From Paragorgia papillata (lineage: Eukaryota > Cnidaria > Anthozoa > Scleralcyonacea > Coralliidae): 64,000 nucleotides of DNA. The notes below the pieces were generated by a model that did no database searches, was not told the origin of the DNA, and saw nothing but the letters and a program-made list of their open reading frames with translations. Position 1 is the stretch's first letter, and the number at the start of each line of letters is the position of its first letter. Made by a program: the position numbers and the translations under genes. The stretch is from positions 1,114,001-1,178,000 of the forward strand of contig JAWNZC010000472.1 in the NCBI GenBank assembly GCA_035771165.1. Direction: 5' to 3'. Shown here piece after piece: positions 36,401 to 45,400 of the stretch.

Positions 36401-39400
36401 CTTTCACGTTAAGATTAACTACTACTAAACGCAAACTCCGTAATTACTTTCTTCATAAACTTACCTGTATTAACCATCTGGAAGACCTTTTTTGCGTCAA
36501 TTGTAATTTTTTATTGAATTGTAAATGTGTTTCTACTTGACTAGTTTATCACTTGACATTATTTCCATATATAGTGTATTAGTTATATCTCTTGTATTTG
36601 TAAATATTGGAATATTGTGAGGGCCGTATGTTAGATAACCTTTACGGTTAATACGTCTTTTCCCTTCCTAAAGTTCTATTCTATTCTATTCTATTCTATT
36701 CTCCCTAACCCCGTTCGACCAGGCTTAACTTCAGAGGCAGCGGGCTAGAGTCACGTACGAATAAATTACTGATATTGATGATATTCTTATTCTTATTTGT
36801 GTTTTTTGTTTTGTTTTTTTATCAGGTTTGTGTTTGCCATTCCACCAGTAACAACGCCACGTATTAGAATGCATGCATCCCATCCTCCTCCATCTTACTT
36901 AGCAACACAGACACGGTTTGAAGAAACGTTAAAAGACAAGCTCTCGTCTAAGATGACTCTACTCCATCCTATAATCCGCGGGCAGTTGCTCCAGTTTCCT
37001 GAAGTTAGGTTGATCCAGTATGACTGTGGTAAGTCCGCTTTATGGTGATATCATACATGCTTGCTCCTAATTGGGTGATTAATTCTCCACTCAATTTTTA
37101 ACAGCCGTGCATGTCGTCACTTTTGTCCCATTCCTGAGACTGAATGATCTCCTAGATTTAGACTATATTTACACTGAGACAAAGGTTTAAAATTGAGCGG
37201 GATTAAGGGCCTGTTAACAAGGACGTAGGGTTACCCTAGCCTGGTACCCTGGCCCAATTTCAAAAGAAATATGGGCCAGGTAACCACTAATCACAATCTC
37301 GCGTCATCAGGGCTAAATCCACTTATGAGGATTGCAGTTTCACTCATAGCCACTAAAAACGCGCGAAATTTCAACCAATAGGAAAGCAGAAGTCTTTAGT
37401 GGTTACCTGGCCCATATTCTTTGATTGGGCCAGGGTACCAGGCTAGAGTTACCCTAGCAGGGTCAAGCCTGGGGGTAACCCTAGTGGTGTGATTGTGTAA
37501 CCCGGGTGCTAGGGTAACCCTACCTTGTAAACAGGCCCTAAAAATCGTACACGACAGTTCGTACAGCATGCAAACACAACTGATTTTATTTATTTTTTTG
37601 CATAACAATGTTGATTATTTTTTTTCAGGTAAACTTCAAACTTTAGATCATCTTTTGAGAAAACTAAAAGCAGGCAAACACAGGTTTGTATAAATGTGTG
37701 GTGAATTGCTTCTATTTTGTGAGCTGTTCTTCATATGCCTTCTGCATGTACTTCGATTTTCTGCTGTGATGAGTTGCTTTCGGTCCGTGTTTCTGAAATC
37801 AATTTGTGACGATTAGAAAGCTCTGAGCAGAGAATTCAAAAAGTACCACAAGACATCTAAGATCTGAAGTGTGATCAAAGCGTGACAGCTAAAAATGTCC
37901 TGAATATGGTAGATCGACCGTTAATTCGAAAGCTCTCGTCAACCCTCAAACTCAGCCGTCAATCTCGTGTCCGGACTTCCTGCATGATGTAATTTATCCT
38001 GCAAGTCAGAGCCCCTTTCCAACCTACGCAGGATTCGGGGAAAAGTGGGCTCTGCCAACAAACTCGATATTTCTTTTTGAGCATCCCAAGCTCTAACGTG
38101 TTACTTGCTATTTTCCTGCTTGTGGGTGCTCATAAACTAGAACTTGTTTGACCAGTTCAAAACCTGACTGACTCGCCCCAAACTTGGGCGAAGATCGAGT
38201 TTGTTGGTAGAGCCCACTTTCCCTGGCCCAAAGCCTTCGTAGGTCGGAAAGGGACTGACTTGCAGGTAGATGTAATCTGTCATGAGTCAAAGACGATCAC
38301 TCTGTTTAACACCAGATTATTGTACTCATCGAAGGAAGAACCCTTTGCAAGCCTAGGCAGCAATGGGTTAATATTTAATATTTTTGAATTCTAATCAGTT
38401 ATATTGTTCTTAGCTGTGCTATTCTATGAGGTTATGTGCGCGTATGGTGGTGCGTTTTGGTGTTTATGTAGTTGGTATAAGTCTAGTTGATTCATATATT
38501 TATGTATTTTTAATTTCTACGGGGGAGCGCCTCGCATGCTCTTCCCGTTTGGATATTAGTATATTATTATAAATCCATTAAAGTTGTTAAATAAATATAT
38601 ATATATATTGTTTGTCTTCTACGTATAGAGCATTGATATTTACTCAAATGACCAAGATGTTAGACGTGCTTGAAAGGTTCTTGAATCACCATGGTTACTT
38701 GTATCTACGTCTTGATGGCACGACCAGAGTGGAGCAAAGACAGGTATGTCATCTGATATATTGTAATATCTCATATCCACACCCTGTTAAGTGGTTTGAA
38801 AAATGAAGCGACAGTTGTCCTTTTTGCAGGGTAGTAATGTAATCAAGTCTATTATTTTCAGAGCAAACTGAAAGGATGGTTAACTGCCGAGAATAGTTTT
38901 GATAACGAAAAACTGACGTTTCGAGTGGAAGCCCTTCATCACATTTTACTCTGGTGAAGGGCTTCGCTCGAAACCCCAGTATTTCCTTACCACCATTTCG
39001 TTATTTCAAATATTCAAGTACTAGCTTAGGAGCTTCTCTCGAGTACATACATGGCGCTTGACGAACTGACAATTCTATTTCTAATGTATTTAGATCTTCT
39101 GCTATGATGAGTTGCTTTCGGTCCGTGTTTCTGACATCAGTATGACGATTAGAAAGCTCTGAGCAGACTATGAATGGGGACATCAATCTTTATTTAGAAA
39201 ATAGAAAACATCTTGTTTCTATAGAGTTGTATAAAAACACGAGAGGAAGTTTGGGAGAACGAGAAATTACAGTGCTACACATCAAGTTTAGGCCATGTCC
39301 ACACCAATCCGTTTTCAAACGATCGCAAACGTATCAAAAGTTTTCCGTACACACTTGCGTTTTGGAATCGTTTTTGCCGTTTAGTAAAACGCTAAAAAGA

Positions 39401-42400: not shown

Positions 42401-45400
42401 TGCCACCCCCTGATCAGAGGTAACCATAGCAACCCCGCCACAGCCCACCTCCCTGCACCAGTCACACTGTCAAAGCAGTGGAAATATATATACTTACCTT
42501 GCATTCTATCAGGAATGGGTGGGTGGATCACTAAACAGCACGCGCAAAACCAGTCAAGCTCAGACCACGCTGACAAGACTTTGATGAGCGCTGAGATAAT
42601 CCCCACATATTATAATGCGTGACCGCTGACTAGCATTGTCTCCTTTTTTACCTTGCCTAAATTACATTTAGCCACATTTATAAATTAGTAATTAATGATG
42701 ATGAATTATTAAGTATATTGAAGAGTAAACTTTGCTGATAATTGGACAATAATTAATATCAAATTAATATTCTTTCAGACCAGCCAAACTGTCTCCAAAG
42801 TTGAGGAGGAACTTCGTGAACTGGAGAATCAGGTAAGATGAAAGTTGATAAATTGTGATTTTTCAATGTCAGAATTATGATGATAAGTTGTACATATACG
42901 ATAAGTTGTACGCTTACCAAGCTCGCAAACGTACCACATGCACTACGTGTATACGTACAACTTATCATATCACTTTAAAGTGCCTATATCATGGTTGTGG
43001 ATTTTACAAATTTATACTAATTGGAACATTCTGAGAAGATTTGTAATATATCTTCTCAGGCGAAAATTTCATCTTCATGGATTTTTTTGCGGTTAAAGTT
43101 GACGGAAGTGACGTCAAAAGAGGAATCTGTAAAGTGGTTTTCATATAGACAAATTCCTCTTTCGACGTCACTTCCGTCAACTTTAACGGCAAAAAAATCC
43201 ATGAAGATGAAATTTGCGCCTGAGAAGATATATTACAAATCTTCTCAGAATGTGCCAATTAGTATAAATATGTAAAGTCCCTGAGGATGACATAGGCACT
43301 TTAAACTATGCACTTATATGCACTTAGGAGCACATATGACTGAATTTGCAACCTTAGCTTTCCATCTGAGCCTCAGTGACTCAATAGTTAGAGCGTCTAA
43401 CTTGCAGGTTCGAACCATGTCTGTGGGGCTCAGAAATCTTTTCTGAGTAATTGAGCTTGACGAACGTCCAACAAACGTTTGTTACAAAATCATTCTTCTA
43501 GAGAAACGCGAAATTTGAAAAACCAAATTTAGTAAATTTCTATGCATAGGGGACTATTTCACACTATTTGTAGCCAAAACTGTTTTATTCGATTTCTGAG
43601 CTCCGATTAAAACTCTACATTGCCATGACGAATCACCTATGGGCGATTTCTGAACTTTTTAAGACCAAGTTTTCGCACAAAGTTTAGCACATTCTTGGTC
43701 AAAAAAGCTTGATTTTACCTAGTATTATCTTGACTGTATAACCGTCGGCGATGTGCTTTCGAAGAGTTGTTTAGTATTACATTTATTTTCGTTGTTGTGG
43801 GTTTTTTTTAGCTTTCTTCTGTCGAGAGATACGCTGTCCATTTCGTAGAATCTTCGTATAATTTCGTTTCAGCCGAACAACTTGATCTTAACGAGGTTTG
43901 TAGCAACATATCTTAGCTATATATAACTATTTGTAGTCGTGCGAGATTTTGAGAGAGCCGCTATTTTGTTTTCGCGACAAGGATGTTTAGACTTTCACGC
44001 AAAACCCACGATAGCTGTGTCTAAGACCCCGTTTACACTTGAGCAAAAGTATCTGGATTCACATTGTTTTTTCTTCCCATGAGGATGAAAAACAATGTGA
44101 ATCCGGATACTTTTGCTCCAGTGTAAACGGGACCTAAAGCCGGTTTTCCACTAGGCGATTTTCTTTTGTTCGAATTCAATAGATTTTTGATTAGTTCCAG
44201 CTCAGAGCTCATGAGACAAAAGAAAAAGTCGCTGCGCGAGAAAAAAAGTCGCCTAGTGGAAAACCGGCTTAAGACTGATATTACTATACATTTCCTCAGT
44301 GTTTTGTCCAATTAAAAAAAATGCCCTATATTCTGATCTTAAGTTTTCTGTGATGATGACTTGCTTTCGGTCCGTGTTTCTGAACTGATTGTGACGACTG
44401 TGAAAGCTCTGAGCAGAAATAATCGGTGTGGTTGGCAGAATAAACTAGTTATAGCTATAGTTAGTTAGTTATGGTTGGTTGGTTGGCACTTCGTTGGTTG
44501 GTTAGTAGGTTGGTTGGTTGGCACTTCGTTGGTTGGTTGGTTGGTTGGTTGGTTGGTTGGTTGGTTGGTTGGTTGGTTGGTTGGTTGGTTGGTTGGTTGG
44601 TTGGTTAGTTAGTTAGTTAGTTGGTAAAATCCAAACAGACCGGATGGTGATTTTGATTGCAAATAAGCTCCGACACGCTCTGAGTCGGGATTCATTTATT
44701 TCAGAAAACGGTCGAGCTTTCCAAGAAAGACTGGGAACTAGAACATATCCAGGCGATGAAAGAAGAAGATGAACGACGCGCAGCGGAGGAAGAAGACGAG
44801 GTTCTCTACGTCACGTACCCTACGGAGGAATCACGACAGGTTAAAAAATCTAAGAGTAAATCATCTAATAAGAAAGTAAAGGCTAGTAATGATAGTAATA
44901 CTAATAATAGCGGAGCGAAGAAACGAAAGACTAAGTCGAGTGCTGGTTCACAAGGCGCTTCGTCGTCACTCGTTCCCAGGCCTAGTCGAAGTACCAGGCG
45001 CACTTCATCAGCAGCTTCTAGTCCAAAGTAGCTGGTGTAACGAGGTATTAGTCTGGTTGTTGTTGAGTCCAAGGTATGCTTCCTTTGTTCCTGCTGTTTT
45101 AGCGAGCTTCAAGTAATCACTTTTAAAAAAAGTCTTTCTGTGTCGCATAACATGCGCTCAAAACTGATTTCTATTCACCATATCTACATTCATAATTATA
45201 TATTTGATATATTTCTCAACCCCCACATGTACTTAAAAAGTTTCTTGACTGTATAAGTTACACAATAATGCTAAAGTAAAGAGATTTTGAATTGTACGCC
45301 AAAAAGAAAATGTAGGTTGAAAACGAGCAAGTTTTGCATTGATATTACTATAAATATGGCGGATTTTAAATTTTTGTAGCGTACCTACCTTTATAATTAT

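Follow-up and report, generated by a model that had tools for sequence, protein, structure and literature searches.

U18 (SNORD18; Rfam family RF00093) is a small nucleolar RNA (snoRNA) of the box C/D class that guides methylation of ribosomal RNA (rRNA). In vertebrates its genes lie in introns of RPL4, and several copies share one host there (the human A, B and C copies). Its sister SNORD126 (RF01168) carries the same guide core, GUCCGUGUUUC, and addresses Am1310. For U18, a table in PMC3511168 pairs RF00093 with the large-subunit (LSU) rRNA sites Am1313 and Am647, which stand in different columns, and has two U18 entries as RF00093, AtU18 as RF01159 with Am660, and clan CL00047; the assignment of the columns to organisms is our own. 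We analysed a stretch of 64,000 nucleotides (nt) of Paragorgia papillata DNA (contig JAWNZC010000472.1, positions 1,114,001 to 1,178,000; hereafter the window), in which four introns of a chromatin-remodeller gene each hold what is very probably a gene for U18.

The covariance model of SNORD18, whose use the initial annotation had proposed, matched four places in the window, all on the forward strand and all above its gathering score of 41 bits (41.6–47.0 bits; Rfam E-values 9.5e-06 to 2.1e-04), and a box search found each of them as well. Copy 1 (37761–37830; 46.2 bits) has box C at 37766–37772, the guide at 37782–37792, box D′ at 37793–37796 and box D at 37823–37826. The corresponding parts lie at 39104–39110, 39120–39130, 39131–39134 and 39159–39162 in copy 2 (39099–39166; 47.0 bits), and at 41475–41481, 41491–41501, 41502–41505 and 41531–41534 in copy 3 (41470–41538; 41.6 bits). 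For copy 4 (44348–44416; 45.5 bits) they are 44353–44359, 44369–44379, 44380–44383 and 44409–44412. Four intronic box C/D snoRNAs of one family had been annotated here beforehand, and both the family and the loci are borne out, with ends that differ by 1–3 nt from the Rfam borders.

The box scan, which required all of C, D′, C′ and D together with at least 4 base pairs (bp) of closing stem, returned five rows on the forward strand, all at the four loci (copy 1 appears twice through an alternative box D), and none on the reverse strand of the window; no row came from any of 30 Markov-1 controls, each 64,000 bases long and scanned on a single strand. The guide, GGTCCGTGTTT, occurs exactly four times in the window, each time with CTGA directly 3′ of it, and allowing up to one mismatch yields five matches, as against a mean of 0.79 (maximum 4) in 100 dinucleotide shuffles. 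A one-mismatch guide at 47748 was rejected as a further copy since CTGA does not follow it directly. When the four copies were used to build a model, it recovered all of them, by construction, at 3e-24 to 3e-26, and found just two matches elsewhere in the window (E 0.69 and 1.1). Altogether, Rfam, the box scan and this model revealed no further U18 copy and no other snoRNA in the window. A looser Rfam scan of positions 34000–62000 added matches below the gathering scores at the same loci, namely to SNORD126 in all four copies, to SNORD63 in copy 1 and to sR3 in copy 4. A separate scan of copy 3 gave a weak match to the GlsR9 model. The pattern of box C, a gap of 6–20, guide and D′ had no match in viral and prokaryotic contig collections, where little was expected.

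All four copies are built alike. A closing stem of 5 bp, TCTGC/GCAGA, in which copies 3 and 4 each have a single U-G pair, encloses box C (RTGATGA), one variable base, two invariant T, GCTTTC, the guide and D′ (CTGA), followed by a linker of 8–10 nt, C′ (TGACGA), a short variable stretch, GAAAGC, a T and box D (CTGA). The ordered boxes, the closing stem and the identical guide set directly against D′, as initially described, are thus present in every copy. GCTTTC and GAAAGC are complementary and identical throughout, forming a putative internal stem of 6 bp. In the alignment, 20 of 20 closing-stem cells are paired, with two C-G to U-G changes, and 24 of 24 internal-stem cells, compared with 37–55% in slid controls; in minimum-energy folds of the single sequences, three copies form the internal stem completely (6/6 pairs). 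GAAAGC leaves little of the sequence before box D free, so that a D-side guide is probably unused. With the internal stem placed between box C and the guide and again before box D, only the D′ guide would probably be exposed.

The fifth guide base before D′, a T, lies opposite the A in fifth place in AAACACGGACC. By the box D′+5 rule the guide is predicted to address the last A of AAACA, which is the U18 site, Am1313 in human 28S rRNA. The initial annotation had named this target; the guide register and the table in PMC3511168 support A1313, and by that table the U18 genes of other eukaryotes have an equivalent LSU site, but the yeast position given as Am649 stands as 647 in the table. The DNA itself shows the sequence family, the boxes, the D′ guide, the closing stem, the internal complementarity and the location in four host introns on the same strand. 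We therefore consider it very probable that the locus holds four paralogues of the gene for U18, a methylation-guide snoRNA. Each RNA would be freed from the spliced and debranched intron and trimmed by exonucleases back to the closing stem, and C/D core proteins would bind at C/D and C′/D′. GGTCCGTGTTT would then pair with 28S rRNA, and fibrillarin would 2′-O-methylate the rRNA nucleotide facing the fifth guide base from D′.

The host introns lie on the forward strand, too; their exon borders were chosen by visual inspection of listed splice sites. Copy 1 sits in intron 37684–38628 (exons 37629–37683 and 38629–38743), about 800 nt from the 3′ splice site, copy 2 in intron 38744–40127 (exons 38629–38743 and 40128–40439), about 960 nt from it, and copy 3 in intron 40440–41647 (exons 40128–40439 and 41648–41773), about 110 nt from it. 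For copy 4, about 290 nt from the 3′ splice site of intron 43896–44704 (exons 43812–43895 and 44705 onwards), the borders are less certain, as the donor sites of both flanking exons score only 6/9. Copies 1–3 hence occupy three successive introns and copy 4 follows after three copy-free introns, which fits the numbering 18, 19, 20 and 24 of the initial annotation.

Several observations weigh against reading the copies as U18 genes. The SNORD18 scores are modest, with copy 3 just 0.6 bit over the threshold, and copy 3 scores higher with the SNORD126 model (46.5 bits), although this is 8.5 bits below the gathering score of that family. The four copies have the internal stem in identical form, and a shuffle control is uninformative about it, since all of 500 shuffles reach each observed pairing value; the minimum-energy fold of copy 1 contains none of its six pairs. 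The distance from snoRNA to 3′ splice site varies from about 110 to about 960 nt. Finally, the copies resemble each other no further than the ends of the snoRNA, a pattern compatible with insertion of mature snoRNAs and with recombination in cis alike.

This last point concerns the origin of the copies. The 11-nt D′ guide, the boxes and the internal stem are invariant, apart from G or A at the first base of box C, whereas the D′–C′ linker is distinct in each copy. Between the strands of the closing stem, one of 44 columns varies inside boxes, guide and internal stem, versus 14 of 19 outside, three of these 14 being gapped columns; the blocks were drawn after the alignment had been seen, and Fisher's p of 4e-9 is therefore descriptive. 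The earlier statement that bases outside boxes and guide differ between copies is correct for most core columns, but not for the internal stem, the 3′ strand of the closing stem, the two T close behind box C and the single T preceding box D, all of which are constant in the four copies. The 400-nt flanks of different copies show no mutual similarity at E 0.01, the single match between different flanks being one of 25 nt between the left and the right side of copy 3. From the divergent columns and flanks we infer that the copies are probably not recent and that their working parts have been retained.

Most likely, the copies arose by an old duplication within the host and then diverged outside these parts. 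It is less likely, yet a serious possibility, that they are instead retroposed mature U18 RNAs or cargo of neighbouring foldback elements, which would be compatible with functional U18 genes all the same. The confinement of similarity to the snoRNA would be expected from such a route, inverted repeats occur in all four introns, and one of their arms ends at 41465, just before copy 3. On the other hand, all four copies lie on the sense strand of one gene, no common tail or target-site duplication was seen by eye (a systematic test was not made), and the foldbacks within the 400-nt flanks do not match the flanks of other copies. The inverted repeats themselves resemble foldbacks of miniature inverted-repeat transposable elements; they span 38039–38223, 41241–41465, 44028–44131 and 44134–44273, with arms up to 100% complementary (41241–41267 with 41439–41465), and the copy-2 intron holds four weaker pairs. 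With the mir-548 model (gathering score 90), the foldback at 44031–44128 in the intron of copy 4 reaches 56.9 bits on one strand and 55.3 bits on the other, a hairpin resemblance only.

Retention of the working parts also bears on whether all four duplicated genes are in use. One or two copies might be expressed and functional and the remainder silent or decaying; a single working copy could be enough, and copy 3 has the lowest SNORD18 score. However, decay would not leave functional parts intact while others vary, and guide, D′, C′, D and internal stem are intact in all four copies, against variation in 14 of 19 other core columns. We thus regard silent duplicates as unlikely.

Far less likely still, the copies might belong to SNORD126, in which the same guide core lies three bases from D′ and aims at a base three bases away. 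Apart from the score of copy 3, their closing-stem letters and the register of their internal stem match SNORD126, whose consensus has GCAUGU...ACAUGC in the register of GCUUUC...GAAAGC; as judged by eye, three of the six pairs are changed on both sides with pairing kept. However, none of the four SNORD126 scores (46.5 bits for copy 3; 34.3, 32.6 and 30.1 bits for the others) reaches that family's gathering score, 55 bits, and outside copy 3 the SNORD18 model scores higher. D′ follows directly after GTTT in every copy, as in SNORD18, and not after GTTTCAG as in the SNORD126 consensus GUUUCAGCUGA, which places D′ three bases later and thereby shifts the target base by three. The copies share with SNORD18 the boxes, the D′ guide and its register, the target site, and a complementarity after box C and before box D; they differ from it in their host, in which there are four of them, and in the letters and register of the internal stem, since the SNORD18 consensus has UCCAC...GUGGA nearby in a somewhat different register (again by eye). 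These stem comparisons used the consensus lines, with no covariation statistic, and both Rfam models pair the closing stem only. The GlsR9 model, too, contains the core GUCCGUGUUUC. A guide register of SNORD18 type combined with ends and an internal-stem register like those of SNORD126, together with the GlsR9 core, hints that these snoRNAs form one old family.

That the resemblance to U18 arose by chance or from repeats, with no snoRNA gene behind it, is extremely unlikely: repeats and foldbacks are indeed present in the introns, but such a box arrangement appeared in none of the 30 controls and the Rfam E-values do not exceed 2.1e-04.

The initial annotation called the host SRCAP-like, which holds for one of the pieces searched. 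The Helicase_C exon (40128–40439; forward strand, as are all pieces; Pfam PF00271 in an open frame) matches SRCAP best among PDB entries (4.2e-58), ahead of SWR1 (2.9e-45), INO80 (1.7e-34) and p400 (5.3e-29). A protein search with this exon found 1220 proteins; among the 120 matches listed the best are 97% identical, and in the names of less close ones helicase SRCAP (87%) ranks above E1A-binding protein p400 (77% and less). In the open frame at 15676–17223, by contrast, Pfam finds a stretch that covers only part of the EP400_N profile (5e-07; 29.4 bits against a cut-off of 27), along with the beginning of an HSA domain (4e-14; 53.1 bits against 23), and the four PDB matches of this frame are all p400. 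An open frame at 48547–48924 has a p400-like stretch (residues 47–86; four p400 matches, best 3.2e-07), next to 15 PDB matches to an unrelated kinase at E 0.57–0.98. The likely exon at 51066–51191 has four p400 matches (2.1e-06 to 8.8e-06), presumably to the SANT region, and one weaker match to Crov588. None of the three host pieces searched outside the Helicase_C exon gave a PDB match to SRCAP. As three of four pieces match p400 best, with no SRCAP chain, and the Helicase_C exon SRCAP, EP400/Domino-type describes the host better than SRCAP-like does. The mixed matches would fit a Domino-like protein with an ATPase that, unlike that of vertebrate p400, has not drifted.

A Swr1-class ATPase host had initially been considered new. 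This is weakened by human SRCAP and EP400, genes of the same ATPase class, which host SNORA30 and SNORA49, respectively. Gene lists place these snoRNAs in the SRCAP and EP400 regions, which does not by itself show an intronic position. SNORA30 and SNORA49 are H/ACA pseudouridylation guides and unrelated to U18. In the open-licence literature, covered mainly by titles and the beginnings of abstracts, no account of U18 hosted by EP400, SRCAP or Domino turned up, which is weak evidence of novelty. Human C/D families mostly reside in a single host, several same-family copies per host being common (PMC8178906), while snoRNAs keep moving among broadly expressed hosts, and at 22 deeply shared intron positions have no common ancestry (PMC3511168). 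Likewise, earlier work cited in a sponge paper found the hosts of the eight snoRNAs detected in Trichoplax not conserved in human (PMC3412847). Given this mobility, U18 genes in an unexpected host agree with current knowledge and would not greatly surprise a snoRNA specialist. The locus thus presents a known snoRNA family in a new host; the RNA is ordinary and the host gene unusual. As a probable host switch, in which an ancient snoRNA came to lie in a gene that is not ribosomal, it favours the idea that evolution conserves guide and fold but leaves the location in the genome free. It also hints at a single old family made up of SNORD18 and SNORD126.

Swr1-class complexes contain TIP48/TIP49 (RUVBL). 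The same proteins act in box C/D small nucleolar ribonucleoprotein assembly (PMC6770171). It is conceivable, albeit highly improbable, that genes of this ATPase class are recurrent snoRNA hosts through this shared factor, with co-regulation of host and cargo; if so, one transcript would yield both a remodeller and a guide RNA dependent on the same chaperones.

Three further elements were seen in the window. On the reverse strand at 52121–52195 lies a transfer RNA (tRNA)-like sequence (Rfam tRNA, 45.2 bits); ARAGORN assigns it an anticodon of four bases and no amino acid, and it is perhaps a tRNA-derived repeat within the host gene. A long low-complexity repeat at 24484–25474 has open frames of at least 300 residues on both strands. 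Downstream of the host gene, the reverse strand at 63371–63694 encodes a partial BTB/POZ domain protein (Pfam BTB_2, 2.4e-12).

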